Below are positions 1,316-57,000 of a DNA stretch of 64,000 bases, in pieces. The notes beneath the pieces were generated by a model. The model saw only the letters and a list, made by a program, of their open reading frames with translations. It searched no databases and was not told where the DNA came from. Origin of the DNA: Diospyros lotus (taxonomy: Eukaryota; Streptophyta; Magnoliopsida; Ericales; Ebenaceae); NCBI RefSeq assembly GCF_014633365.1, contig NC_068344.1, positions 19,483,669 through 19,547,668 on the forward strand, written 5' to 3'. Position numbers and translations under genes: made by a program. Position 1 is the stretch's first letter, and each line of letters opens with the position of its first letter.

Positions 1316-4234
1316 ATAACAGTTAAGATGATGACTACCAGCCCATTGAGGCAGAAGAATTAGGGAGCTTATCAAGTTTTGGTCCATAGTCCTCTAATGA
1401 TGATGACTATGACATTGTAAGGCGAAATATAAGGAGATTGAAAGAAACTAGTATAGACCATAGATATGGTTAAGGTCTTGATAATATGAATAATAGGACC
1501 ACACATTACTTTATTAGGAGTGGTGAAGATGATGATGGAGATAGAGAGAATGATAGTAATGATAGTGGCTACCATAGTGTATATAATGACACTGATAATG
1601 ATAACAAGACACCTAGACAGTAGTGAGGAAGGGCACTTGATTGTTAGGGTACGAAGGAAGAAGAAATTGAACATTTATAACCATGGGTGTGACCACAAGG
1701 AGTTTGACTTTTCTCTTGGCATGAGGTTTAACAATGTTGCACAATTCAAACAAGTTGTTTAGAAGTATGGAATCAATCAAGGGTATAATATAAGATGGGT
1801 GAGAAAATCTGATACAAGAATGAAAGCAAAGTGTAATGAGGCATGCAAGTGGATGATATATGCCTCTCAGAACGAACGTGATAGAACTTTTATAGTTAAG
1901 ACTTATGATTCTAGCCACACAAGTTTTAGATCCATGAGTAATAGGCAAGCCACGATAGAGTGGCTGGTAATGGAATATTTATCTGAGTTTAGGGAGAACC
2001 CTAACTATTAAGTGCATGCAATGGAGAAGGATTTGATGGAGTGACATGCCATGTCTGTTAGTAAAGTTTTGTGTTATAGGGCAAGGAAAAAGACTTTGAG
2101 CAAAATTAAAGGAACCTTGGAAAAACATTATGAATGGTTGGTGGATTATATTCTTGAGTTAAAACGAGTGGATCCCGAAGGCACATTTAAGCTGGGAGTA
2201 GATAGGGATAATCAAAATAATGAACCTATATTTAAATGGCTATATATAGGTTTCAACAGTTTGAGAAAAGGGTTTAATGTGGGTTGTAGGCTCGTGATTA
2301 GAGTAGATGGTGCTTTCTTGAAGACACTGATTGGTGGGGCCTTTTTTATTGCAATTGTAAGAGATGGAAACAACTAGAAGTTTCTAATTGCATGGGCAGT
2401 TGTGAGAGTTGAGAATGAAGCTACTTGGACGTGGTTTTTGTCCTTATTGGCAATAGATCTAAGGATGGACACTGGGCTTGGTTATACTATCATCAATGGC
2501 CAACAAAAGGTTAATCACTATAAGTTGTTTCTCTTTGTCTTGTACTTAGTTACAATGTTGTTGCTTTTTGTGTATGTTATTAACTCATAATTTGTTTGTC
2601 TTTTATATAAGGCTTATTAAATGTTGTGGTTAATCTATTTGTATATGTTGAGCATCGAAATTGTGCAAGGCACATCTATGCAAACTGGAAGAAAGTGCAC
2701 AAGGGATAAGAGCTGAAATTTCTATTCTGGGAGGTTGTGAATACAACTTATGAGGTTGAATTCAATGCTGCTATCAAGGAATTAAGTAATGCAGTACCAC
2801 AAGCTGCTGAAGATTTCTTGAGTAAAGGAATGCACCACTTTTGTAAGGCTTTTATAAGCATTATCCCTAAATGTGATAACGTGGATAACAACATTGTTGA
2901 AACCTTTAATGGTTATGTTTGTAAGGTAAGAACAACGCCTCTTATTTGGATGTTAGAGGAGATTAAGACATCACTTATGGAGAGGATGCACAACAAAATG
3001 AACATGATGCTAAACTGTGATGATGTGTTGTGTCCTAGAATTAGAAAGAAGATTGAAAAAGTGAAGGTAGATTTGAGATGGTGCACTCCTAAACTAGCCC
3101 TAAACAATAAGTTCCAAGTTGGAGTTGGGAAAGATCAGTTTATTGTGGATTTAAATGAATGTACTGTTCATGCAGATTATGGAGTGTTAGTGGTATTCCT
3201 TGTTGTCTTGCTATTTCCTACATTCATTACATGAAGCAAGATGTTGATTTTGTGGATGACTATTATAAGGAAAACGCTTACTTCACGGCTTACAAGTATG
3301 CATTGGAGCCTTTAAATGGAAGAAGGATGTGGCCTACTACAGATGGAGAAAAAATGAAATCCCCACCTTATAAGAAGGGTCCTGGTAGACCTAAAATTAG
3401 AAGGAGAAAATAGTTGATGAGAGAGAAAAATCCTCTCGAAAGATGTCGAGAGTTGGGGTTAAAATGCAATGCCAGATTTGCTATGAATATGGGCACAATA
3501 AAAAGGGATGTACAAGAAAAGACAATCCTCCATCTAGGTAAGAAAATTCAGTAAGTTTTCTAACTCTTTTATTTTTATATTCTTCTTGTGTTACATTTTT
3601 ATATTTTGAGTTGTAACACTTTTATATTATTACAGTCATCAAGAAGGAAAAAGGCCAAAGAGAACCAAACTAGTTCATCTCAAGATCAACGTACTCCCAG
3701 TTCATCACAGACTCAATCAATTCCTATTGAGGCACAGCAAAAGATGGAAACACAAGCCAGTCAAACAAGTCATAGGCATGTAATGAACAAAGAGAGTGAT
3801 TAGGTATAATTATTAACTTCAGTCTCAATAATTTTATTTGGTTCACATATTGGTGCACTCATTTTAGATTGATTTCCACATACTAGAAAAGGATATGGAG
3901 TGAGTTTGTTCTCTAAGACTAGGAATATGTATTTATGTGTAAAGCTTCACAATGTGTTCATTTCGAATTTAATTTGCATATATTAAATTCTTATTACTAT
4001 ATTTAATATTTTCCATAGATGATAGGAGAAACAAATGTTAGATTTGTTAGTGGGTCTTCTGCAGCAGTAGTTGCTGCTAAGGTAGTCTCCAAAAAAGCTA
4101 CTACTGAGGTAGTCCTTAAACGAGTAGCTGATCAGGCAATGGCTAATGTGGAGTTGTTTATTTCATCTAGGTGTCAAAGCAATTATGTCCAATCAAGCAC
4201 TCCTCTTCCTTCTCAACTAGATACTCTACTTTAG
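1316..4234 (+). pseudogene. MULE (MuDR-type) transposase, degenerate
   Basis: Reading three frames in turn gives the domain order of a plant MULE transposase. An N-terminal MuDR DNA-binding stretch (1680-2000) includes a KCNEACKWMIYAS motif. The transposase core (2051-2500) includes RVDGAFLK, the first catalytic Asp block, and IVRDGNN. A HRNCARHIYANWKK block lies near 2652-2700, a helical region at 2737-3110, and a SWIM-like zinc finger with CSCRLWSVSGIPC at 3165-3205. After it come a CCHC knuckle (CQICYEYGHNKKGC, about 3468-3510), a possible intron (about 3539-3635) and low-complexity C-terminal pieces to 4234. In-frame stops near 1760, 2009, 2042 and 2375 and frame changes near 2600 and within the SWIM finger break it. 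The second catalytic Asp block reads IINGQQK where the family usually has SDRQKG. It is therefore dead; it would have catalysed MULE excision and insertion in the nucleus. Confidence 0.85.
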
Positions 4235-5183
4235 TCTCAATCTATCCAACCAAATACTTCCACTTGTTTGCCTTGTTCCCAACCACCAAGACCAAAGGTA
4301 TCGGTAAGGTAGTCATCTAGGATTGCAATTCAAGTCAAGAGTAGTTCTAGCAAGAATACATATTCCTAGTCTTAATTGAAACAATAATTTTTATTTGAGT
4401 TATTGTTATTATTTAGAGATGGGACGGGTTTACAAAATGTGATGATGTTGTTGGTGTTATCAATGTTTGTGGTGTTCATGTTTTTTGGAGACGGGTTTTA
4501 ACCAGCCTATTGTTTCGAACTATTTTGGAGGAAATTATAAATGCTTTTTGTGATTGTGATTGTTGTTGTTGCTGTTTTTTATGTGTATTTGTTATAAAAC
4601 ATGCATACTTATTATGAAATAGGCACATTTGATATGAAAGCTTTTGGTATGAAACATGCATATTTGTTTGTGTTTTGAAACAAGTTACTGTTATTAGGAT
4701 ATGAATGCTTTTGTTAGGAAGCCAATTTTTTTTTTTTCTAGGTGTTATGCTTTTTTTTTGGTGAAACTTGCTTTTTAAGGATGTCTCTTAATTGGCACAT
4801 CTATTGACATATACTATCCAAAATGCCTAAAATTGTGTTCATGTTTTAACACTGGCTAAGAGACAAGCATCAAGATATTAATTAACATATCAGTTTTCTA
4901 ATAACTAAGATAACAATTACATGCAAATACATTATAAACAAACAACAAATGTACTTATATCACTTAGATGGAAATACATTAACAAAAAAGCAACCAAACC
5001 CTAACACTTTCCCAGCATACTTCATGCCTTACAATTGTTCATACACTGATTACACTAAAGTCAAATACCTACTTCCTTCATTTTTCATCACCCATAAAAT
5101 CCACAAAAAACAACCCAACCCTAATACTATCAGACCCCTAACAAACTTAATTTCTTTTGTCCTATACTTTTAGAGCTTCATTT

Positions 5184-5649: not shown

Positions 5650-6002
5650 CTTAACTGAGGCAGGCAGTAATATTTGATTCAGTTAAATGATTGTAGCTTA
5701 AAGGTTTTAACATTGTCAATATCCTCCAATTTATATGATATAAAGTATGTAAAAAAACATTACTAATGGATTAAGTAAATTGATAGGGTGCATTGTTTAG
5801 TTGATATTACCCTCTTTGTAGCCGTCGCTGTTAGCAAGGGCTGGTTCCATCACCATTGTTGCGTGTTAATTTCGTGACTGTCGCTATGCGTCGCTTCCGC
5901 CTTCGTTACCCTGCGTCTGTTCTGTCGAGTTGGCTACTATTGCTATGTGTCGATTCCTTTAACGTTGGTGTGGGTCATTTCCATGGTTGTCGTTGTCCCT
6001 TC

Positions 6003-8426
6003 TATAACACCCTGCTTTTTCTCTTACCGAGTATGTCACTATGCTGGGGCCCAAAATATAGATAAATCATTTTTTTCTTTTTTTCTCGGTACATAACTTA
6101 ACCTTAAGTACCGAATTCCAAACAAAAACCCCCAGCAAAACATTAAAGATGCGGAAGCAATAATTGAAACCTGATATGGTACGTAATCAGTTTACTTTAT
6201 AACATAAGAATCCGTAATCCTCAATATTGAAATACATAAATACATGGAGATTTCATAATATTCTAACAAGGCTAATCATCAATAAAGCATCAACTAAAAC
6301 ATATCCAAGTCAGCTCGCTGAATCCATCAGTCATGCCATCACGTGCCGTCTCATCTCAATCTGCTCTTTGACTAAGCTGCAAGTCTAAACTGGAACGTTG
6401 AATGTTCTAAGGGCATAACCCATTAGAAGAAACTTCTAGTGAGTGTCCAAAACATATATATGAATGCATGATGCAATAATATGAATAACATTTGCCCTTA
6501 ATGTAACTTCTCAGGCCCACCAGCCCAGCACAGAATCCTAGGCAAATCCCGAACCTCTACAGGATATGCCTAACGTTATTCCATCATTGCCCTAGGGGAA
6601 TTACGGCTATACTCTGGGGGCGACATCCCATTCCCATACACAAATATTAACGTGACAATAATATCGTGCCATGCAATTATCACTACTTTCCATGCAATAT
6701 GACAAAATGAATCATATCTTTCATAAATATCATGCATAATAAACAATCATATCATGTAGGATAGGAAAACTCACATTTGACCAAAGATCAAGACACCTCG
6801 AAAAACGTGCACCCCCCAATGTGCGTGCCTGACCTCGATTCTAGTGCCAACTCTCAAAAGTTGCACCAATGACATCATCTCTATCTCCTTAATCATAAAA
6901 TAATATTTAGTCACTAAATATCCTTGATATTCCATTTATTTCCTATTTTCCTCTATTTTTCTTTCTAAAAATCCCAATAAATACATCGGGACCATTTTCT
7001 CAAATCTATCTTCACAACAATTCATAATAGACTATAAACTTCCAAGAAAAAATACTGGACTTACCCGGGTGTTGCTTTTTCACGCAAAATGAGGCTCTTT
7101 AGCGCAGAAATCGAGACATCGGGAATCTCAAATCCCAATCTTTTTACACGAACTTCCATAAAACATTTTTCTTGATTTTTCCAAAATTTTTGGCCCATGC
7201 ACGCGCCCCCATGCATTGGCGCGTGGCTCTACGCGTGAAGGCCACGCGTCGGCCATGCCGGCGATGCTGGATTTCGATGCCATTCTCTTCCTTTCATCAA
7301 GTCGATCAGGATGGCCAAGTTTGAGCCTCAAAGGACCACCGGAAGACCTCAAATCGACCGGCCAATCTCTTGGCCAAACCGCCTGCCTCCAAACTCCGGC
7401 GAGCCTTGAATTACTATGAAACCTCGATCAAAACGGCCTAAATTTTCTAGAAACGATCCTCAGGCCATGGGCAACAAAACCCCTCTATTTTGGAGGCTCA
7501 ATTCGTTCGTTAAAGCCCTTGATTTGAAGCTCCATTTCTCCCTATTTTCGGCCTTCATGAAACCCTATTTATAGGTATCTTCGATGCTTCAAATGCCTGA
7601 GATCGGCCAACCCATGAGCCTTGGAGCATCTACCTCCCTTATATGGCCCTGGAACGAGCCTTACCCAAACACAAAAAGCAATTTGCAGCCACTCAATCGC
7701 GCAACCATTTTCAGTCGCTTTTTCATGCTTTTCTGGCCAACCCAATGGCCATTGTCGGATCCTCCTTTACAAAAGATGCTCCCCCGACCATGCATCGTGC
7801 AACCCCGTGGTCTATTTCAGCCATGGCCGACTGGCCATGTGCTGGTCATTGGCCAACTTTTAGCTTTTTGCATTTTGGCCTTTACCTTTTTGACCCTTTT
7901 TACTTAGCCGCTGAACTTTTCAATGATGCATTTAAGACCCTCAAGTCCCAAAACATCAATTTGACTCCTGAAAATTCCAAGAAATTATCGTTTCGACCTC
8001 CCTCAGGAAATTTCAAAAAATTACACTTAAGCCCGAATCTTCGTTTTGGCACTAAACCTCTTTGTTTCTTCCTGAAACCATTGAAGGGTTGTTTCTCATG
8101 AAAAACCGTAGCCCCTCAAGTTTTCGTTGACTTCCGGGAAGTCGTCTATAACAATTCGGTATTACAGCCTAATTGGCAGCTGCCTTTTTGCTGTACCAAA
8201 AATTATTCCCGATTTGTTTTCTTTCGGCATCATAAATTCTATCTCAGGGTGCTCGTTAATACCACATCATTTTCCTTTGGCATCTCAGCTCCAAGGTACT
8301 CCCGGTAGTCAATTCAATTATCCATACGGTAATAAATTACTCTTATACCCTCAATTTATCCTTAAATTCCATTTTTGCCCCAAGATAAATTACCCTTGAG
8401 TCCTTTAGAATTTCTCAAGTATTACA
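6003..8426 (-). mobile_element. Solo LTR, Ty3-type, 2.42 kb, with perfect TSD
   Basis: On the minus strand the element begins TGTAATACTTGAGA (at 8426) and ends GGGTGTTATA (at 6003). It is flanked by the direct repeat CCTTC at 5998-6002 and 8427-8431, a perfect 5-bp target duplication. It is collinear with the LTR at 1-1315: a CACGCG/CGCGTG-rich patch near 7200-7255, the GATGTCTCGATTT block near 7110, the AACTTTTGAGAGTTGGCAC block near 6850 and the GGGCGACATCCCAT block near 6620. No internal retrotransposon sequence adjoins it, so it is a solo LTR left by LTR-LTR recombination, sitting in the 3' part of the MULE. Confidence 0.85.
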
Positions 8427-14389: not shown

Positions 14390-15034
14390 TGTAATGCCCC
14401 AAGAGTCCAGAAAATGGTAATATATATTGAGGATAAGTAAGGAATGAAACAACACCAGCTGGATACCTTTTGGGTTGAATGTAGGCAGAGAACTCCCGGG
14501 TTAAGCGTGCTTGAGCTAGGGAAGCTTAAGGATATATGACCCCTTGAGAAGTTCGCATAGGCTCATTAGGGTAAGTTGTTTTGATCATTCCTATCGCCCG
14601 ATGCGGGATGTTACAAATGGTATCAGAGCCAACCCTTGGTGAAGGTAGTCCGATGAGGGCAAGGAGTGGCACCGGGGCTTGAGGGCTTGTACAATGAGCT
14701 GTTTTTGGCAGGTTTCTAGGATGGTAGCCCCCAAAGAGGAAAAGGTCTGGAACCAGTTGTAAGGTTGTATGACGAGGATGTCATGTGCTCAAGGGGGGAG
14801 AATGTAATGCCCCAAGAGCCCAAAGAAATGTAGTATATATCGAGGATAAGGATAAGTAAGGAAGGAAATAACACCAACTGGATACCTTTTGGATTGAATG
14901 TAGGCAAAGAACTCCTAGGTTAAGCATGCTTGAGATGGGGAAGCTTAAGGATGGGTGACCCCCAAGGAAATTAGCGTAAGCTCATCAGGGTAAATTGTTC
15001 CGGTTCTTTCTATCGCTCGATGCGAGATGTTACA
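14390..15034 (+). mobile_element. TRIM (terminal-repeat retrotransposon in miniature), complete
   Basis: Two LTRs flank a 187-bp internal region with no coding capacity. The 5' LTR is 14390-14615 (226 bp, TGTAATGCCCC..GGGATGTTACA). The 3' LTR is 14803-15034 (232 bp). Just after the 5' LTR is a primer-binding site, TGGTATCAGAGCC at 14618-14630, complementary to initiator tRNA-Met. Just before the 3' LTR is a polypurine tract, AAGGGGGGAGAA. Flanks are TTTGT and TTTGC, a near-perfect 5-bp target duplication. It lies inside the CACTA element. TRIMs need enzymes from other elements to move. Confidence 0.9.
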
Positions 15035-15815: not shown

Positions 15816-15948
15816 ATTACAACGGCTTGAGATCTTTGATATGGTGGTATTCATAATTCCATTTGGTAGCCTGTTATGGCTGCTAGCTGGTTTGTATATC
15901 GGTTCTTGGGTGCTAGTGTCTACATTTTATGTGGGCCCCAAGCACACT
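15816..15948 (+). mobile_element. Continuation of the LTR-like sequence after the CACTA
   Basis: The sequence after the CACTA right end (ATTACAACGGCTTGAGATC) is interpreted as the continuation of 8831-10866 because TAG repeats on both sides of the CACTA. It is cut off near 15948, where TRIM LTR sequence begins. No homology within the window tests this join. Confidence 0.35.
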
Positions 15949-16217
15949 TAACCCGGGAGTTCCTTGCCTACATTCAGTCGAAAAAGGTATCCAGCTGGTA
16001 TTATTTTCCTTTCTTACACTATCCTCGATATATATTAACTTCTCTAGGCTCTCGAGATATTACAGGGTCACCCATCATTGAGCTTCCCTAGCTTAAGCAC
16101 GCTTAATCCCATAGTTCTTTGCCTACGTTCAGCCCAAAAGGTATCCAGCTGGTGTTGTTTCATTCCTTATTTATCCTCGATATATACTACCATTCTCTGG
16201 GTTTTTGGGGTATTATA
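15949..16217 (-). repeat. Two truncated TRIM LTRs in tandem
   Basis: Two partial copies of the TRIM LTR, minus orientation, lie back to back at 15949-16064 and 16065-16217. Each contains the conserved AGTTCTTTGCCTAC-like, AAAGGTATCCAGCTGG and TCCTCGATATATA blocks and each ends in a TATTACA-like LTR start. A remnant primer-site block (ATACCA, 16217-16222) separates them from the next TRIM LTR at 16225. The arrangement suggests unequal recombination among TRIM LTRs, leaving an LTR array. Confidence 0.75.
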
Positions 16218-16301
16218 TACCATCTGTAACATCCCGCATCGAGCGATAGGAAGGACCAGAACAACTTACCCTGATGGGCCTATGTGAACTTCCAGGGGGT
16301 C

Positions 16302-19172: not shown

Positions 19173-19702
19173 TGGTCACCCATCCTTGAGCTTCCCCAAC
19201 TCAAGCACGCTTAACCCCCAGAGTTCTTTGCCTACATTCAGCCCAAAAGGTATCCAGCTAGTGTTATTTCTTTCTTTACTTGTCATCGATATATACTACT
19301 CTTCTCTGGGCTCTCGGGGTATTACATTCTCCCCCCTTAAGCATATGACGTTCTTATCATGCGATCTTATAATCAGTCCCAGATCTCCACCATTTGCATA
19401 GCTAATGTGGGATTTGCCTAAGGTGCCTACACGCACCCCTCCTTAAGGACTCAATTTCCTCGCTGAGGGTTGCCCCACCACCGCGCTCAAAGGCTCGAGG
19501 GTCAGCTCTAATACACCTGTAACATCCCGCATTGAGCGATAGGAAAGACCGGAACAACTTACCCTGATAAGCCTACGCGAACTTCTTAGGGGATCACTCA
19601 TCCTTGAGCTTCCCAGGTCAAGCACGCTTAACCCGGGAGTTCTTTGCCTATATTCAGTCCAAAAGGTATCCAGCTGGTGTTGTTTCCTTTCTTACTTATC
19701 CT

Positions 19703-20483
19703 CAGAGATGGGAAATGGGTGGGCGGGTTGGCTCGACCCGCATCCTGCTTAGCCCACCCATTTGATGGGCCAAGCTGAATTTGGCCAACGAGGGAGACGG
19801 GCCGGGCAAGGTTAGGGAAATGGAAATTGGGGCCCAGCACGGCCCTGTGGCCCTTAATAAATGGACCAAAGTGGGTCGGGCCTGGCTGTTTGGGCCGACC
19901 CATAAACCATTTATTTTTAATTTTTTTAAACATAATTTTTTTTTCTCAAATATAACTAATATTTTTTAAAATTTATTTATAAGTAAACATTGTTTACTTA
20001 TAAATTTTATGTTTGTAAAATTATGTTTACAGTAAACATAAATTTACAAACATAATATTTACAGTAAACATTATGTTTACAAACATTATAATCAAATTAT
20101 GTTTATAATCATAATTTTACAAACATAATAAATATTATGTTTACAAACATAATTATGCTTACAAACATTACATTAAAATTATGTTTACACTAAATATAAT
20201 TTTTAATTATTATGTTTAAAATATATTTATAATTACTAATTACAAACATAATTTTTTAAATATTTTTTTTATTTTTGGTGGGTCAGGCCGGGCCATTTTA
20301 GCGAACCAATTGGTGGGTGGCCATGGGCCATTTTGGTGGGCCAGGCAGGGCCGAGCCGGGCCGTAGGCCACATATCGCTGGCCCGGCACGGTCCTTATTT
20401 TGTTAGGCGGGCTTGCCCGGCCCGTCTGCTACAGTAACGGGATGGGCCGGCCTATGGGCCGCCCAGTCCATTTTTCATCTCTA
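19703..20483. mobile_element. Non-autonomous hAT element, 781 bp
   Basis: Ends are CAGAGATGGGAAATGG (19703) and, inverted, TAGAGATGAAAAATGG (20483), fitting hAT terminal repeats. The 8-bp flanks CTTATCCT and TTTATTCT match at 6 of 8 positions. Excising the element restores the TRIM LTR phrase around TCCTCGATATATAC seen in sister copies. Both termini carry dense GGGCC/GGCCC words. The centre (19920-20270) is AT-rich, with repeated AAACATAATTTTACAAACAT-like words able to pair. There is no transposase. Confidence 0.8.
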
Positions 20484-20641
20484 TTTATTCTCGATATATA
20501 CTATCATTCTCTGAATTCTTGGGATATTACATTACTAATTAATTTATTATTATTCAAAATGTATTTATCTAAGTTTTACTTGTCCGTATCAACTTTTTTC
20601 TTAACTGTAGCTAGCCATGTTGATAGGAAGAATAAGTAATA

Positions 20642-23600
20642 GGGAAATTCTATTCACAGCGAGAGTTTTACTCTTTGCAGTCTTTTCCCACCAAAATTTT
20701 TCTTCATTTTTCATAAATCCTATTTTACCATTCTATCAACTCACCACGTTATCTTTCTCATAGTCACTCCATCTCTCTTTCTCTCTCATTATATCAATTT
20801 TTTTCTTTTTCACACCCATCTCTCCATTTCTCTCTCCCAATCAGCACACACACAAATATGTATATATATATATATACAAACACACACACACAGATAATTT
20901 ATTATAATAAAATAAAATTAAAAAATATAAATAAATATCTGTATTTTAAATAATTATAAATTAACTAATTATAGATTTTTTAACTAATTTTAAATATTAA
21001 ATTATCGTGAGTTAAATTTTTGATACTCAAAAATATTTAAAATTAATTAATTTATCTTATTAAATTACTTAAAGATACATATACTTAAAATTAGCTATTC
21101 AATCAACTAATTTAATAAAATATATATTTTTTAAAAATAGTTGAATTTATTTAAAATTATATATGTATCTTTTTAAAAATAATCTATTAAATAAATTCAA
21201 CTAATTTATTTTTTAAAAAAATTAACTAATTTAATTTATTTAAAGATGGAGGTATATTTTTAAAAGAATTAACTAATTTATTTATTAAATAAATTCAACT
21301 AATAAGATAAATGTATCTTTTTTAAAAAGAATTTATTTATTTATATTTTTTTATTTTTTTATAATAAAAAAATTAATTTAAAAAAACAAAAAAAAAACAA
21401 AAAAAACAAAAACTTCCCCAAAAGCTAGCTTTTGGGAAACATTGGGTTCCCTGAAAGCTGGCTTTCGGGGAACCTTTTAATAGTCAAAAAAATATTTAAA
21501 AAAATTAGTTATTTTATTTTATTAAATTATTTAAAAATACATATACTTAAAATTAGTTATTCAATCAACTAATTTAATAAGATATATATTTTTAAAAAAT
21601 AGTTGAATTTATTTAAAGATATATGTATCTTTTTAAAAATAATTTATTAATTAAATTCAACTAATTTATTTTTAAAAAAATTAACTAATTTAATTTATTT
21701 AAAGATGGATGTATCTTTTTAAAAGAATTTACTAATTTATTTATTAAATAAATTCAACTAATAAGATATATGTATCTTTTTAAAAAGAATTTATTTATTT
21801 ATATTTTTTTATTTTTTTATAATAAAAAAATTAATTGAAAAACAAAACAAAAACAAAAAAACAAAAACTTCCCCAAAAGCCAGCTTTCGGGAAACATTGG
21901 GTTCCCCAAAAGCTGGCTTTCGGGGGAACCTTTTCATAGTCAAAAAATATTTAAAAAAATTAGTTATTTTATTTTATTAAATTATTTAAAAATACATATA
22001 CTTAAAATTAGTTATTCAATCAACTAATTTAATGAAATATATATCTTAAAAAATTAATTGAATTTATTTAAAGATATATGTATCTTTTTAAAAATAATTT
22101 ATTAAATAAATTCAACTAATTTATTTTTAAAAAAAATTAACGACCCCCAGCATTCCCCGACCCCCAGCTTTCGGAGAAGTTTTTTTTTATTTTAATTACT
22201 TTTTTATTATAATAAAATAAAAAATACAACTAAATAAATTCTTTTTAAAAAGATACATATATTTTATTAGTTGAATTTATTTAATAAATAAATTAGTTAA
22301 TTCTTTTAAAAAGATACATCCATCTTTAAATAAATTCAATTCGTTAATTTTTTTAAAAAATAAATTAGTTGAATTTATTTAATAAATTATTTTTAAAAAG
22401 ATACATATATCTTTAAATAAATTTAATTAATTTTTAAAGATATATATCTCATTAAATTAGTTGATTGAATAACTAATTTTAAGTATATGTATTTTTAAAT
22501 AATTTAATAAAATAAAATAACTAATTTTTTTAAATATTTTTTGACTATGAAAAGGTTCCCCCGAAGGCCAGCTTTCGGGGAACCCAATGTTTCCCGAAAG
22601 CTGGCTTTTGGGAAGTTTTTGTTTTTTTTTTTTGTTTTGTTTTTTTAATTAATTTTCTTATTATAAAAAAATAAAAATATATAAATAAATAAATTCTTTT
22701 AAAAAGATACATATATCTTATTAGTTGAATTTATTTAATAAATAAATTAGTTAATTCTTTTAAAAAGATACATCAATCTTTAAATAAATTAAATTAGTTA
22801 ATTTTAAAAAAAATAAATTAGTTGAATTTATTTAATAAATTATTTTTAAAAAGATACATATATCTTTAAATAAATTCAACTATTTTTTAAAAATATATAT
22901 CTTATTAAATCAGTTGATCAAATAACTAATTTTAAGTATATGTATTTTTAAATAATTTAATAAAATAAAATAACTAATTTTTTAAAATATTTTTTTACTA
23001 TTAAAAGGTTCCCCGAAAGCCAGCTTTCGGGAACCCAATGTTTCCCAAAACTAGCTTTTGGGAAAGTTTTTATTTTTGTTTTTTTTTTAAATTAAATTTT
23101 TTTATTATAAAAAAATAAAAAAATAAAAATAAATAAATTCTTTTTAAAAAAGATACATTTATCTTATTAGTTGAATTTATTTAATAAATAAATTAGTTAA
23201 TTCTTTTAAAAAGATACCTCCATCTTTAAATAAATTAAATTAGTTAATTTTTTTAAAAATAAATTAGTTGAATTTATTTAATAAATTATTTTTAAAAAGA
23301 TACATATATCTTTAAATAAATTTAACTATTTTTTAAAAATATATATTTTATTAAATTAGTTGATTGAATAACTAATTTTAAGTATATGTATCTTTAAGTA
23401 ATTTAATAAGATAAATTAATTAATTTTAAATATTTTTGAGTATCAAAAATTTAACTCACGATAATTTAAAATTTAAAATTAGTTAAAAAATTTATAATTA
23501 GTTAATTTATAATTATTTAAAATATAGATATTTATTTATATTTTTTAATTTTATTTTATTATAATAAATTATCTGTGTGTGTGTTTGTATATATATATAT

Positions 23601-23820
23601 ACATATTTGTGTGTGTGCTGATTGGGAGAGAGAAATGGAGAGATGAGTGTGAAAAAGAAAGAAATTGATATAATGAGAGAGAAAGAGAGATGAAGTGACT
23701 ATGAGAAAGATAACGTGGTGGGGTGATAGAAGGGTAAAATAGGATTTATGAAAAATGAAAAAAAATTTTGGTGGAAAAATGCTACAAAGAGTAAAACCCT
23801 CGCTATGAATAGAATTTTCC
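20642..23820. mobile_element. Giant foldback (long inverted repeat) Mutator-like element, 3.18 kb
   Basis: The left end GGGAAATTCTATTCACAGCG and the inverted right end GGAAAATTCTATTCATAGCG begin two arms of roughly 1.5 kb that are inverted copies of each other, with the centre near 22150-22200. The flanks are TAAGTAATA at 20633-20641 and at 23821-23829, a perfect 9-bp target duplication, which points to the Mutator superfamily. Each arm contains two tandem units of about 450-460 bp. Each unit is marked by a GC-rich palindromic block with GAAAGCTGGCTTTC and GGGGAACC (near 21415-21477, 21874-21937, 22557-22615, 23006-23065). There is no coding sequence. The transcript of either strand would fold into a very long hairpin. 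Confidence 0.85.
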
Positions 23821-23829
23821 TAAGTAATA

Positions 23830-51000: not shown

Positions 51001-54000
51001 TTCTATTCTTGATGCAACACCATTACCACTAAAAGCCACTCTACGTTCCACTTTGGGAGGCACAACTTTCTTGGTTTCCCTTATTTTAGAATCCATTTTC
51101 CCATGACTCTCATTAAAGGGATCCTCGGGAGTAGGCAGGCTAAAACACATTCCCTGCAGAGACACAATAGATTGAAACAGGATAAGAAATACATGACAAG
51201 ATCATGCTGTTTGCATTTAATGATAGTGTTAAGAGAATAGATTATCAAATGCTGGTACCAGAAAAACAGAACACTACCAGTTTCACACACCAAAAAAAAA
51301 AAAAAAAAAAAAAAAAAACAAATAGCAAGCAACTTACTCTCCTCATACATTCTATTTGAAGAAATTTCAAATTCTCAGCAGGACATGATAATAAATGCTT
51401 AGAGAACATCAATAGAAAACAGAGAAGAGTCAGTTTATGTATATGAAACCCAATTCAATCAAACGAATAAACTGCAAAATAAAAACACAACATTCTGAAA
51501 TATTTCATATTTTTCATCAGAAAGATACAAAATTGATCAGTCTAAGAGCACTCTCTAGTGTCAAATTTAGTGATTAATAAACATTAAAATCTGAGACAAA
51601 CAATAATGCAGTAAGCATATGCTTGACGATAATAAATCAAAAATAAAACAACTAAAATAAAAAATAATAAACTAGTGTGTTACAGACTGTCCTTTTCCAA
51701 GAAACAATAAGTAATCAATATCATCAGTGTCTCCACAAACAGCCTGATAGCGATGCAAATAACAGGAATCAAAATGACATTCAATCTGATGTGATAAAAA
51801 GCCCCTAATAGCTTGGAGTTGTATGGCATTTTTAGTAAAAAAACAATTCCGTGAAAAGGGCGTCTTGAATGCATGAAGCTCCCTGCTTTACGAGGGTTGT
51901 GGGAGTCATATTTGCATGCAACCTCCCGTTCACATTTTTTTCTTTTTTGAAAAGAGTGTGTTTCTACAACCTGATCCCATGACCTTCCCAATCACAAAGG
52001 AGAGTGATAAGGGTAATTTGTGTGGCTGGGTTGTTGCATGGTTTGTGTGTATATAGGAGTGTTGCAGGTGGACGTGCACATAACTAAAGTAGGAGTCTTT
52101 TGTTTCTGTTGTTTCTGTTGCAGGAGAATAAGCGTAGCCTATAATGTAGGATTGGCTAGTTATAGGCTGCATAGAAATAGCTTGCATTTCCCATTTTCCC
52201 AATTATTTGCTGTTAGTTGGTGTCATGGGTGTTATCCCTTTTTAATTCTTGTAATTTGGTGGCTGATAAATAGCCATGGTAGTTTGAGAAGAAAGGAGGT
52301 TGAATTCTGCTAAACTACTCTCTCACGTCTTCTTCTATTCTCCTTTCCGCCTTCCCTTAATTCTGAAAATTCACCTATCAGTGGTATCAGAGACAGGTTC
52401 CGTCTATGGACACCTGCGGTAAAACTAATGCTGAGTTCAGTAATGAAGTTCATGAAATATCGGGACGCCAGGAGTCCAGTATTGATGAAGTTCACGCCAC
52501 TCTCCAAACTGTTCTGCAAGAACTCCAAGCCTTGCATGCATCACAGATTCCTCATACCCCTAACCCAGACATGAACCCATTCGCCCCGACCGAAGCATCC
52601 CATCAAATTAATCATCCCACAGCCACTCACTCCCAACCTTCTTACTTGCACTATAACCACCTTCAACTCAAACTTACCTTCCCAAAATTTGATGGAGAGG
52701 ATCCAACCGGATGGGTCTACAAAGCCGAGCAATACTTCGACTTCAAGGAAGTTGCCCCAGACCAACAAGTCTCCCTTGCCTCCTTTCACCTCAAGGGAAT
52801 TGCTCTCCAATGGCATCGCTGGTTCTCCAAATTTCGAGGACCTGTAACTTGGGCAAAATTCACCAAGGCTCTATTACTTCGTTTTGGACCGACGGACTAT
52901 GAAAATCCCTCCGAAGCACTCCCTTGCCTCAGACAAACAACCACTGTTACAGCTTATCAGGAAGCTTTCAAGAAATTATCACACCGGGTAGATGGGCTGC
53001 CAGAATCTTTTCTGGTTGGGTGTTTTATAGCTGGCTTATGAGACGAGATAAGGCTCGACGTTAAAATCAAACAACCCAACTCTTTGGCTGATGCTATCGA
53101 AGTGGCTCGACTAGTTGAGGAGCGTAATGGCCTGCAAAAGAAAGGGACCAGTTCATATAGGACCTCCATTCATGGCATCCCATCCAAGTCTACAAACAGC
53201 AGCCCTGTTGGAATCCTAGGACCTCCACCTGCGCCTAAACTACCATCTGGAAATAACAACAACCCACTTACTTTCAAACGACTCACTAGTCAGGAAGCCC
53301 ATGAACGGAGGGAGAAGGGGCTATGCTACTACTGTGACGAACAGTTCGTTCAGGGCCACCGATGCCAACAGCCACAGCTCTTCATGATGGAAGACACGGC
53401 AGAGGTTGAAGACGAGCCACCTAGAGGGCGGATTGAGAAGCAAGAAGGTGAGGAGATAGCGGAAATTTTATTTCATGCTATTGTAGGGAAAATGCACCCC
53501 CAAACCATACGACTCCAAGGATGGATGAAGGGGCGGAGCGTGACTGTTTTGGTTGACAGTGGGAACACTCATAATTTTATGGATCAGTCCCTGGTAAAGA
53601 AGTGTGGGTTAACTATAACCAATGACCAAACTTTCCAAGTTATGGTGGCCAACAGAGAGAAGATTGATTGTGTTGGAAGATGCTTGGCACTACCATTGGA
53701 AATTCAGGGATACTAGGTGAAGGCAAATTTCTATGTGTTGCCTATAGCTGCTTGTCTGCTTGTTTTGGGGGTCCAGTGGTTGGCAACTCTAGGACCAGTG
53801 GAGATGAACTATCAGCAGCTCACCATGACTTTCCAAGAAGGTGGCAAAACCTATACTCTCCAAGGCGTATGACAAATTGGGTTGGAAGCTCTTGAAGACA
53901 AGGGAAGCCACCACATTCAGGGTTCCAGCCTATTCCTCCAACTAACGACTACAGACGAAGCTGTGAAGGGTAAAACTTACCCCCCCGACCTCACTCAATT

Positions 54001-57000
54001 CCTTGATGGATTCAAACAAGTCTTTGAACCACGCCCTCAACTACCCTCGGTTCGTAATCAAGATCACCAAATCCCTCTACAACCGCACAATGGTCCAATC
54101 AATGTAAGGCCCTACCGATACCCCTACTACCAAAAATCGAAGATTGAGAGAATGGTTCAAGAGCTTCTGCGTTTAGGGCTAACCCATCCAAGCCGCAACC
54201 CTTTTTCATCCCCAGTTCTATTGGTAAAGAAATCAGATGGAAGTTGGCGTTTTTGCGTGGACTACAGAGACTTGAATGAAATTACAGTAAAAGATAAGTA
54301 TCCAATTCCTGTGATTGATGAACTACTTGATGAACTTCATGGGTCTAGATATTATTCGAAGTTAGATTTGCGCTCCGGATATCACCAAATTCGAGTGCAG
54401 GAAAGTGACATTCCAAAGACCGCATTCCGTACACACGAGGGACATTACGAATTTGTGGTTATGCCCTTCGGACTCACCAATGCACCTGCCACCTTCCAAA
54501 GCCTCATGAATGACATCTTCAAGCCTTTCCTTCGTATGTTCATTCTAGTTTTTTTTTATGATATATTGGTGTACAGTAAATCTTGGCAAGACCACCTACT
54601 TCATTTACAAACGGTATTGGAAATTTTAAGAAACAACAGTTGTTCGCCAAGGAATCCAAGTGTCGGTTTGGAGTAGTACAAGTAGACTACTTGGGTCACA
54701 TTATTTCAGAAAAAGGTGTAGCAGTGGATCCAACCAAAATTCAGGCTATCATGGAATGGCCCGTGCCAACTACAACTAAAGGGGTCCGTGGATTTCTGGG
54801 ATTGGCAAGCTACTACCGTAAGTTCATTAGTGGGTTCGGAAGTATTGCAACACCCCTAAACCACCTCTTGACCAAGGAGGGGTTCACATGGACGACTGAG
54901 GCCAAAAAAGCTTTCAACAAGTTGAAGGAGGCTTTATCCTCCCCACCAGTTTTAAAACTACCTGATTTCTCCCAGCAATTCGTGGTAGAATGCGATGCAT
55001 GGGGGTTGGGGATCAGAGCCATTTTGTCACAACAGGGGCAGCCCATCGGGTACTTTAGCGAGGCATTGAAAGGGACAGCTTTGGCTTTATCAACATATGA
55101 AAAGGAGATGCTCGCAATAGTGAAGGCAATCCGTAAATGGCGACCATATTTGCTGGGAAGGCATTTCACTGTGAAAACTGATCAAAAAAGTTTGAAGTTC
55201 CTCCTAGAACAACGCATTACCACCCCAGCTCAGGCACGTTGGCTCCCCAAGTTACTCAGATACGACTACAAAATTGAGTATAGACGTGGTCAAGATAACA
55301 AAGGGGCTGATGCCTTATCTCGTCAAGTTGAGATTAATTTATTAGCAATATCTTCTCCTAGTGCTGACTGGTGGAGGGCACTCCAACAAGAGATTAACCA
55401 AAACCCATTTTACACAAGTTTTCCCAAAAAGAATTCCTCCAGGGCCAACCCACTCTATATGCAGCGCGATGGTGTGTGGTACTTTAAAGGTAGAATTTAT
55501 TTGAGTCCCACTTGCACTCTACTACCTGCTATTCTAGCTTGACTATCATTCTTCTCCTACTGGTGGTCACTTTGGATACCATAAGACATTGGCACGCATT
55601 CAGCAGAGTTTTATGTGGCCGGGTCTACGAAAGTCCTTCAAAGAATTTCTACAAACTTGTATTACTTGCCAACGCTTCAAGATAGAAAGTTTGAGCCCGA
55701 TTGGTCTCCTGCAACCGCTTCCAATCCCAACTAGGATATGGACCAACTTAGCCATGGATTTCATAAAGGGACTACCTCCTTCGCAGGGCCACACGATGAT
55801 CATGGTTGTGGTGGATAGACTTTCAAAATACAGTCACTTCATTCCCTTACGACATCCATTCACAGCGGCAATAATAGCCAAGGCTTTTGTGTCCAATGTC
55901 GTCAAGCTACATGGGATACCAAGTTCCATAGTAAGTGACAGGGATAAAATATTTGTGAGTTCGTTCTGGAGCACTCTTTTCAAATTGCAGGGGACCGAAC
56001 TCAAGATGAGTTCAAGTTATCACCCTCAAACCGATGGCCAGACTGAAGTTGTCAACCGTACACTGGAACAGTACTTGCGTTGCTTTGCTGGAGACCAACC
56101 CCGGAAGTGGTTGGATTGGTTGCTTTGGGCCGAATACAGCTACAACACCAGCCTGCACTCGGCCACGAAAATCACCCCTTTTGAAGCCATCTGTGAACTG
56201 CCACCACCTACATTGCTTCCTTATGTCCCAGGTACCACCCAAGTACAAGCAATTGACGAGTTCCTCTCCAATAGACAAGCTATCCTCAAGAACCTGAAAC
56301 GGAATTTGAGTTTGGCCCAAGAGCGTACGAAGCAGCAGGCAGATCGTGGTTGACGTGAGGTTCAATTTCAAGTGGGAGACCTTGTGTACCTGAAATAACA
56401 TCCCTATAGGCAGACTTCTGTTACTTTTCGTAGATCCCTGAAGTTGTCTCCACGATTTTTTGGACCATTTGAAGTCTTGGAAAAAATTGGGCAGGTGGCT
56501 TATTGACTTGCCTTACCTCCAGGAGCCCAAATTCATGATGTGGTCCATGTGAGTCTCTTGCAAAAGCATCTGGGAAACCGGCCACCAGCTCTTCCCTCGC
56601 TTCCACCCGTTTCTGACAAGACAACCATCATGCCAATTCCTCAAAGGGTGCTCAATCGTTGTGTCATCACAAAAGGGAAGTACCGACCCCGAATCGAAAT
56701 CTTGGTTAAGTGGGCAGGGGCTCCTACGGAAGATGCCACCTGGGAGAACTTGTGGCGATTCTCGTGGACCTACCCTGACTTCATCCTTGAGGACAAGGAT
56801 TCTTTGGCAGGGGAGGAATGATAAGGGTAATTTGTGTGGCTGGGTTGTTGCATGGTTTGTGCGTATATAGGAGTGTTGCAAGTGGACGTGCACATAACTA
56901 AAGTAGGAGTCTTTTGTTTCTGTTGTTTCTGTTGCAGGAGAATAAGCGTAGCCTATAATGTAGGATTGGCTAGTTATAGGCTGCATAGAAATAGCTTGCA

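Follow-up and report, generated by a model that had tools for sequence, protein, structure and literature searches.

The window analysed here, a 64,000-nucleotide stretch of the Diospyros lotus genome (C7:19483669-19547668), contains a near-palindromic element of 3179 bp. Such a structure raises the question of whether it is a genuine transposon and of which kind, a product of the assembly, or a locus that gives hairpin RNA. The initial annotation, made from the sequence alone, had placed at 20633..23829 a foldback Mutator-type element (MULE) with two inverted arms of about 1.5 kb and an exact 9-bp target duplication. These coordinates proved exact, both duplications included. Inverted self-alignment over the full length recovered two arms of ~1.5 kb each (1433 identities, 48 mismatches and 33 gap positions; 96.8% identity without gaps), and the 9-bp sequence TAAGTAATA was perfect on each side. 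The GC content of the element stretch is 16.9%, and an AT-rich low-complexity alignment had been named as a possible source of the arm similarity. The best local arm score was 1350.5, against 186 ± 10 (maximum 212) in 100 dinucleotide shuffles; the match is therefore not low-complexity noise.

The arms are composite (Table 1). In the left arm a tandem array with a period of 455 (2.5 copies, 21018-22141) was detected by TRF, and in the right arm one with a period of 446 (2.8 copies, 22180-23448), while the outermost ~375 bp lies outside the array. The tandem units of about 455 bp described initially were thus recovered, but the palindrome reported within them is a pair: two GC-rich palindromes ~33 bp apart occur at every unit boundary, and the exact 14-mer GAAAGCTGGCTTTC is one among several palindrome variants. 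The centre is asymmetric, as left unit 3 ends early (~22141-22153) and is followed by a scrap of GC-rich repeat; the central loop, read off the repeat coordinates, measures ~175-200 bp. From 22146-22159 on, the centre matches the edge of the central array of L015, L019, L031, L032 and other copies of the family described below. An exact search for the junction string TTAACGACCCCC in the 33 other delimited copies gave no match, and the window copy is therefore probably an internally deleted derivative that has lost most of its central array.

Table 1. Features of the foldback element, in window coordinates.
Feature	Position	Strand	Evidence
Left target site duplication TAAGTAATA	20633..20641	.	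Exact match to 23821-23829
Non-autonomous foldback element, 3179 bp	20642..23820	.	Inverted self-alignment; dispersed family in same genome
Left terminal non-repeated segment, start GGGAAATTCTATTCACAGCGAG	20642..21017	+	Consensus of 68 arm ends; unit mapping
Left unit 1, AT-rich block	21018..21410	+	Unit mapping; TRF period 455
GC-rich palindrome pair	21416..21472	.	Repeat and palindrome mapping
Left unit 2, AT-rich block	21472..21866	+	Unit mapping
GC-rich palindrome pair	21871..21927	.	Repeat and palindrome mapping
Left unit 3, truncated	21933..22141	+	Direct repeat family D2; TRF array end; junction
Remnant of central 33-bp GC-palindrome array	22142..22178	.	Matches array edges of other copies
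Right unit 3, AT-rich block	22180..22556	-	Unit mapping
GC-rich palindrome pair	22557..22615	.	Repeat and palindrome mapping
Right unit 2, AT-rich block	22617..23009	-	Unit mapping
GC-rich palindrome pair	23009..23064	.	Repeat and palindrome mapping
Right unit 1, AT-rich block	23067..23448	-	Unit mapping
Right terminal segment, inverted copy of left terminal segment	23449..23820	-	Self-alignment
Right target site duplication TAAGTAATA	23821..23829	.	Exact match to 20633-20641

A genome search for other copies, proposed in the initial annotation, revealed a dispersed family. At least 247 matches to the element were obtained in the 630 Mb of the assembly (43 contigs; best 40 of 623 candidate regions scored), and copies occurred on at least 14 numbered contigs among the matches listed. 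A 30-base end pattern (up to 3 mismatches) located 159 family ends genome-wide (75 + 84), and the reversed pattern, used as control, located 0. In a sample of 40 copies (the window copy and 39 further ones) both ends could be placed in 34, with L014, L018, L029, L034, L036 and L047 not delimited. A perfect 9-bp duplication flanked 25 of the 34 delimited copies, compared with 2 of 1120 trials in which left and right flanks of different copies were mispaired with equal search freedom. Among the nine delimited copies lacking a perfect 9-bp duplication, one showed a perfect 8-bp duplication (L011), four a 9-bp duplication with one mismatch (L017, L023, L030 and L044) and four no convincing duplication (L020, L028, L031 and L042). 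The 25 perfect duplications had an AT content of 78%. Two copies, L039 and L040 (C6:16.016 and 16.056 Mb), were separated by 40 kb and shared their duplication as well as identical flanks of 400 bp, indicating either a segmental duplication or assembly redundancy; since both lie within one duplicated segment, 24 of the 25 perfect duplications are independent. When the flanks of the 34 delimited copies were compared with the fetched loci in search of empty sites, only the L039/L040 pair (both filled) and one weak match were recovered. The foldback structure with its 9-bp duplication is thus a feature of the whole family.

The same dispersal bears on the possibility that the palindrome derives from a chimeric or folded read, palindromes of such size being typical of whole-genome-amplification chimeras. 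Many copies were found with differing flanks and target duplications, and the arms of the window copy differ from each other at the sites and gap positions given above. A query with the two flanks joined recovered both window flanks, overlapping by exactly the 9 bases of TAAGTAATA; genome-wide it matched the window's own two flanks only, so that the empty site sought for the window copy was not found, although a lack of further matches in this type of search is no proof of rarity. The element is no assembly artefact, an explanation that can be considered refuted in practice.

The delimited copies had a median length of 2943 bp (range 2412-4637) and shared a common plan, with a terminal segment of ~375 bp followed by usually two or three AT-rich units of ~450 bp per arm, GC-rich palindrome pairs between units, and often a 33-bp GC-palindrome array at the centre. 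According to unit mapping, most arms had two or three units, with extremes of 1-4 in left and 0-5 in right arms, some of them inverted. In 25 of the 34 copies there was a GC-rich island 150 bp or longer, the window copy being among the nine without one, and the longest island measured within a copy reached 510 bp (L015). The centres of five copies (L015, L017, L019, L031 and L032) were plain arrays of ~33-bp palindromic units; that of L039 was an interrupted array, and that of L046 was mixed with another kind. At least 173 matches to the central GC array were found (40 of 102 candidates scored), corresponding to short arrays located mostly inside foldback copies, with a longest single match of 429 bp among the matches listed. 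Satellite expansion of the array was considered and discarded, as no expanded satellite was present among these matches.

The units also carry a record of the history of the family. Among 164 units, compared with gaps ignored and hence with generous absolute values, identity was highest between units at mirror places of one copy (0.961; 60 pairs), followed by units of different copies that occupy the same position (mean 0.940; 4025 pairs) and units of one arm (0.925; 150 pairs), and was lowest between units at different positions in different copies (mean 0.917; 8649 pairs). Since same-place units are more alike than different-place ones, the units and the mirror symmetry appear to be older than the spread of the family. 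In the outer 380 bp, the two arms of one copy did not, as a rule, resemble each other more than they did the nearest other copy, which was often the arm L025_L, whose own left-right overlap spans only 162 columns. Shared derived sites between arms averaged 0.43 within a copy and 0.21 between copies. Taken together, these data allow no clear claim for or against gene conversion between arms. The arm divergence of the window copy (K = 0.033) corresponds to 1.3-6.6 million years under three different substitution rates, a range too rate-dependent for use.

Regarding its class, the element combines several traits of MULEs, whose target duplications measure 8-11 bp and mostly 9 bp. The prevalence of perfect 9-bp duplications, the G-rich start of the ends and the very long terminal inverted repeats (TIRs) of the window copy are consistent with this group, and the long composite inverted repeats, with tandem subrepeats and little or no spacer, conform to the foldback type. 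The MULE assignment of the initial annotation is therefore likely; it relies on the size of the duplication, the sequence of the ends and the length of the TIRs, as no transposase-bearing partner was found among the ends and MULE matches compared. The genome yielded at least 151 MULE-domain matches (150 of 925 candidates scored), and a comparison of 100 of the 159 ends with the MULE matches listed provided no transposase partner with the same ends. With regard to the captured gene fragments typical of Pack-MULEs, no stop-to-stop frame of 75 or more amino acids was present in the window copy between 20954 and 23558, and three frames of 78-86 amino acids lay at its outer ends. The copies are longer than MITEs, which have an upper length limit of ~800 bp. 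They also differ from MULEs with tandemly repeated ends, since an extra internal end (22-base end motif, up to 6 errors) was found only in L039 and L040, a single duplicated locus, among the 34 copies.

Three MULE-domain places, at C2:19.02 Mb, C2:21.45 Mb and C1:32.44 Mb, lay ~4 kb inside family ends in the same relative orientation among the matches listed (chance being put at ~0.1 by a rough hand estimate). They were rejected as autonomous partners, as they represent a different element with an embedded 155-bp family end. At least 7.5 kb is common to the C2:19.02 Mb and C2:21.45 Mb copies, with a ~99% match to the left and to the right of the supposed end, and two pieces from C1:32.44 Mb also match, partly to the left of the embedded end. 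The stretches examined at the C2 places, 13.9 and 9.0 kb long, moreover contained no second end (up to 8 mismatches). This different element (L048, at C2:19.02 Mb) has an 816-residue open frame at 2514-4961 with FAR1, MULE and SWIM domains according to Pfam. Many GGCGGACTT/AAGTCCGCC motifs were observed in it. It has copies at L053 and L056/L057, and L048-type elements have spread with the 155-bp end fragment of the foldback family inside.

The lack of a partner would also be compatible with a foldback element of another superfamily that makes similar target duplications. Foldback-like TIRs have also arisen in Galileo, a P-superfamily element of flies described as having composite TIRs with internal tandem repeats. 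An origin of this kind is improbable here, however, considering that the duplications are of MULE size in most delimited copies, that this genome is rich in MULE transposase domains, and that P-type elements are rare in plants. The copies very probably constitute a non-autonomous family of foldback DNA transposons, whose members most likely move by means of a MULE transposase provided in trans.

Which parts of the element such a transposase would require is suggested by two sibling elements, L050 and L051, found via the family end and flanked by perfect 9-bp duplications (TTTCCCTTA and AGTAATTTT, respectively). They share with the foldback family only the last ~40 bp; their bodies are unlike those of the family and contain other GC-rich palindromes. 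In a blockwise comparison, the left and right ends of L050 agreed over only ~40 bp, and those of L051 are alike over ~40 bp as judged by eye. In addition, L046 (C11:26.49 Mb) is a hybrid, with the left arm of the foldback family and an L050-type right end (a 369-bp match at 91% and three inner matches of 352-522 bp). Its two arms do not match as inverted copies (0.51 across the outer 380 bp), yet it carries the perfect 9-bp duplication ATTCCTTTT. Given that the short-ended siblings and the hybrid all have perfect 9-bp duplications, an end of ~40 bp seems to suffice for movement, and the long arms seem to be passengers; we infer that one transposase may serve both groups.

According to the mechanism proposed here, a Mutator-type transposase from elsewhere would act on the outermost ~40 bp of each end and insert the element by a 9-bp staggered cut, compatible with the duplication observed. 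The mirror arms, ~450-bp units and GC-palindrome arrays would be passengers already present in the source element; they differ in number among copies and, judging from the siblings and the hybrid, may be dispensable for insertion. After insertion, copies would decay through C-to-T changes such as methylated plant DNA undergoes. An extended scheme of modular end swapping, in which the transposase needs only the ~40-bp end, unrelated repeat bodies (those of the foldback family, the L050/L051 family and hybrids such as L046) are traded between identical ends, and hairpin RNA tunes the silencing of the end-sharing group and so preserves the mirror arms, seems improbable.

Hairpin RNA had already been invoked in the initial annotation, which expected read-through transcripts to fold as at the maize Muk locus. 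The fold itself was supported: RNA of the whole window element was predicted to form one hairpin with 1442 of 1499 pairs in register and an MFE of -1868 kcal/mol, against about -470 (-456 to -495) in 5 shuffles. Of the 3156 24-mers of the window copy, 2460 are also found in one or more of the 33 other copies, and the fully paired 24-mers number 557, so that read-through RNA diced to 21-24-nt RNAs might silence the family in trans. Decay of the methylation type across the family is consistent with such silencing. Changes from the end consensus, which stands in for the ancestor, were scored in 66 arms over their outer 388 bp (outliers L032_R and L046_R dropped). They were dominated by 635 C>T (11.6% per site) and 193 G>A (17.2%), against 158 T>C (1.7%), counts for which sites and copies are not independent. 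By context, the figures were 93/385 in CG, 164/787 in CHG and 556/5323 in CHH, the order CG > CHG > CHH being that expected of plant transposons under methylation. The same decay, however, would result wherever a repeated transposon is subject to ordinary RdDM. Furthermore, AATAAA signals occur in both arms (43 and 40 on the two strands), the first ~265 bp inside either end, and the inner arms offer no coding frame of 75 or more amino acids as a silencing target. No gene was recognised beside the element in a Pfam scan of 20 of the 109 window frames of at least 75 amino acids; of these 20, 15 had no match and 5 fell within an LTR element (52-56 kb). Muk itself is a rearranged copy of the autonomous MuDR, transposase sequence included; the window element resembles it in its long inverted repeat, predicted to be able to give hairpin RNA, but has no recognised coding sequence, inverted transposase copies included, and is one of many alike. 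That it is a natural hairpin-RNA locus of the Muk type is consequently very doubtful, and we regard it as an ordinary transposon of uncommon shape, not a special regulatory locus.

Other repeats were observed in the window. The LTR element at 52367-56350 shows Gag, protease, reverse transcriptase, RNase H and integrase domains in consecutive frames and is, by its domains, of the Ty3/gypsy type. A second long inverted repeat pairs 10-1313 with ~6000-7249 (941 of 1167 aligned positions identical; by blastn, 77-890 with 7192-6375); it begins near the window edge, and its own edges showed no target duplication. Inverted copies of ~80-210 bp with 81-88% identity also lie within 5.3 kb, at 14390-15034, 15939-16301 and 19174-19704, a cluster that is possibly another foldback or nested repeat.

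Among plant elements, the family resembles FARE of Arabidopsis, a foldback family with long palindromic ends, now classed under MULEs; the likeness refers to its general description. FARE is also named in the account of MuTAnT from Medicago truncatula (PMC4486113), a foldback MULE that likewise has modular TIRs and 9-bp duplications. As described there, MuTAnT consists mostly of short non-autonomous copies (90% of 200-300 bp) and targets TA microsatellites, whereas copies here measure 2.4-4.6 kb and a TA repeat served as duplication only in L027 among the 25 perfect ones. The MULEs with tandem-repeated ends reported from tomato and Arabidopsis (Ferguson and Jiang 2012; PMC3310237) are similarly amplified non-autonomous plant elements with long duplicated sequence at both ends; in their published description the end itself is duplicated, unlike here, where the terminal ~375 bp is single and the inner units repeat.

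The unit-within-arm architecture, which the initial annotation considered unusual, is real but common to the family, and composite TIRs with tandem repeats have been described in Tetris, Galileo and Tm1. Tetris, a foldback element of Drosophila virilis, is reported to have TIRs that reach 1735 bp and consist of an outer flanking domain, ~220-bp AT-rich tandem repeats and an inner domain, duplications of 8-10 bp and no apparent coding capacity, and it was assigned to Mutator by duplication size (PMC4079207). The present family shares with that description the long TIRs, the outer domain followed by AT-rich tandem repeats, duplications within that size range and the lack of apparent coding capacity. 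It differs in its ~450-bp units, the GC-rich palindromes between them and the frequent central 33-bp array, and also in that its array showed no counterpart, among the matches listed, to an expanded satellite. Tm1, a Mutator/Foldback element of the root-knot nematode, also has composite TIRs that vary in length and contain tandem repeats, as well as duplications of 8-10 bp (45 of 53 elements) that correspond to the 9-bp ones found here; its reported repeat unit, however, is 13-15 bp, and a transposase-bearing member is known (PMC3169594). In Galileo, repeats inside the TIR are reported to bind the THAP domain of the transposase. By analogy, a binding role for the ~450-bp units is possible, although the short-ended siblings L050 and L051 argue against its being essential. 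The exact end and palindrome strings had no match in the literature searched.

The element is thus one of a large, new family of a known kind, a foldback transposon and probably a MULE. It adds a well-documented plant foldback family in which long-armed copies, short-ended siblings and an end-swapped hybrid constitute natural experiments, and with their 9-bp duplications these separate what the transposase needs from the functions of the arms. If the hairpin-RNA idea were true, the family would provide a multi-copy model for inverted repeats that start silencing.
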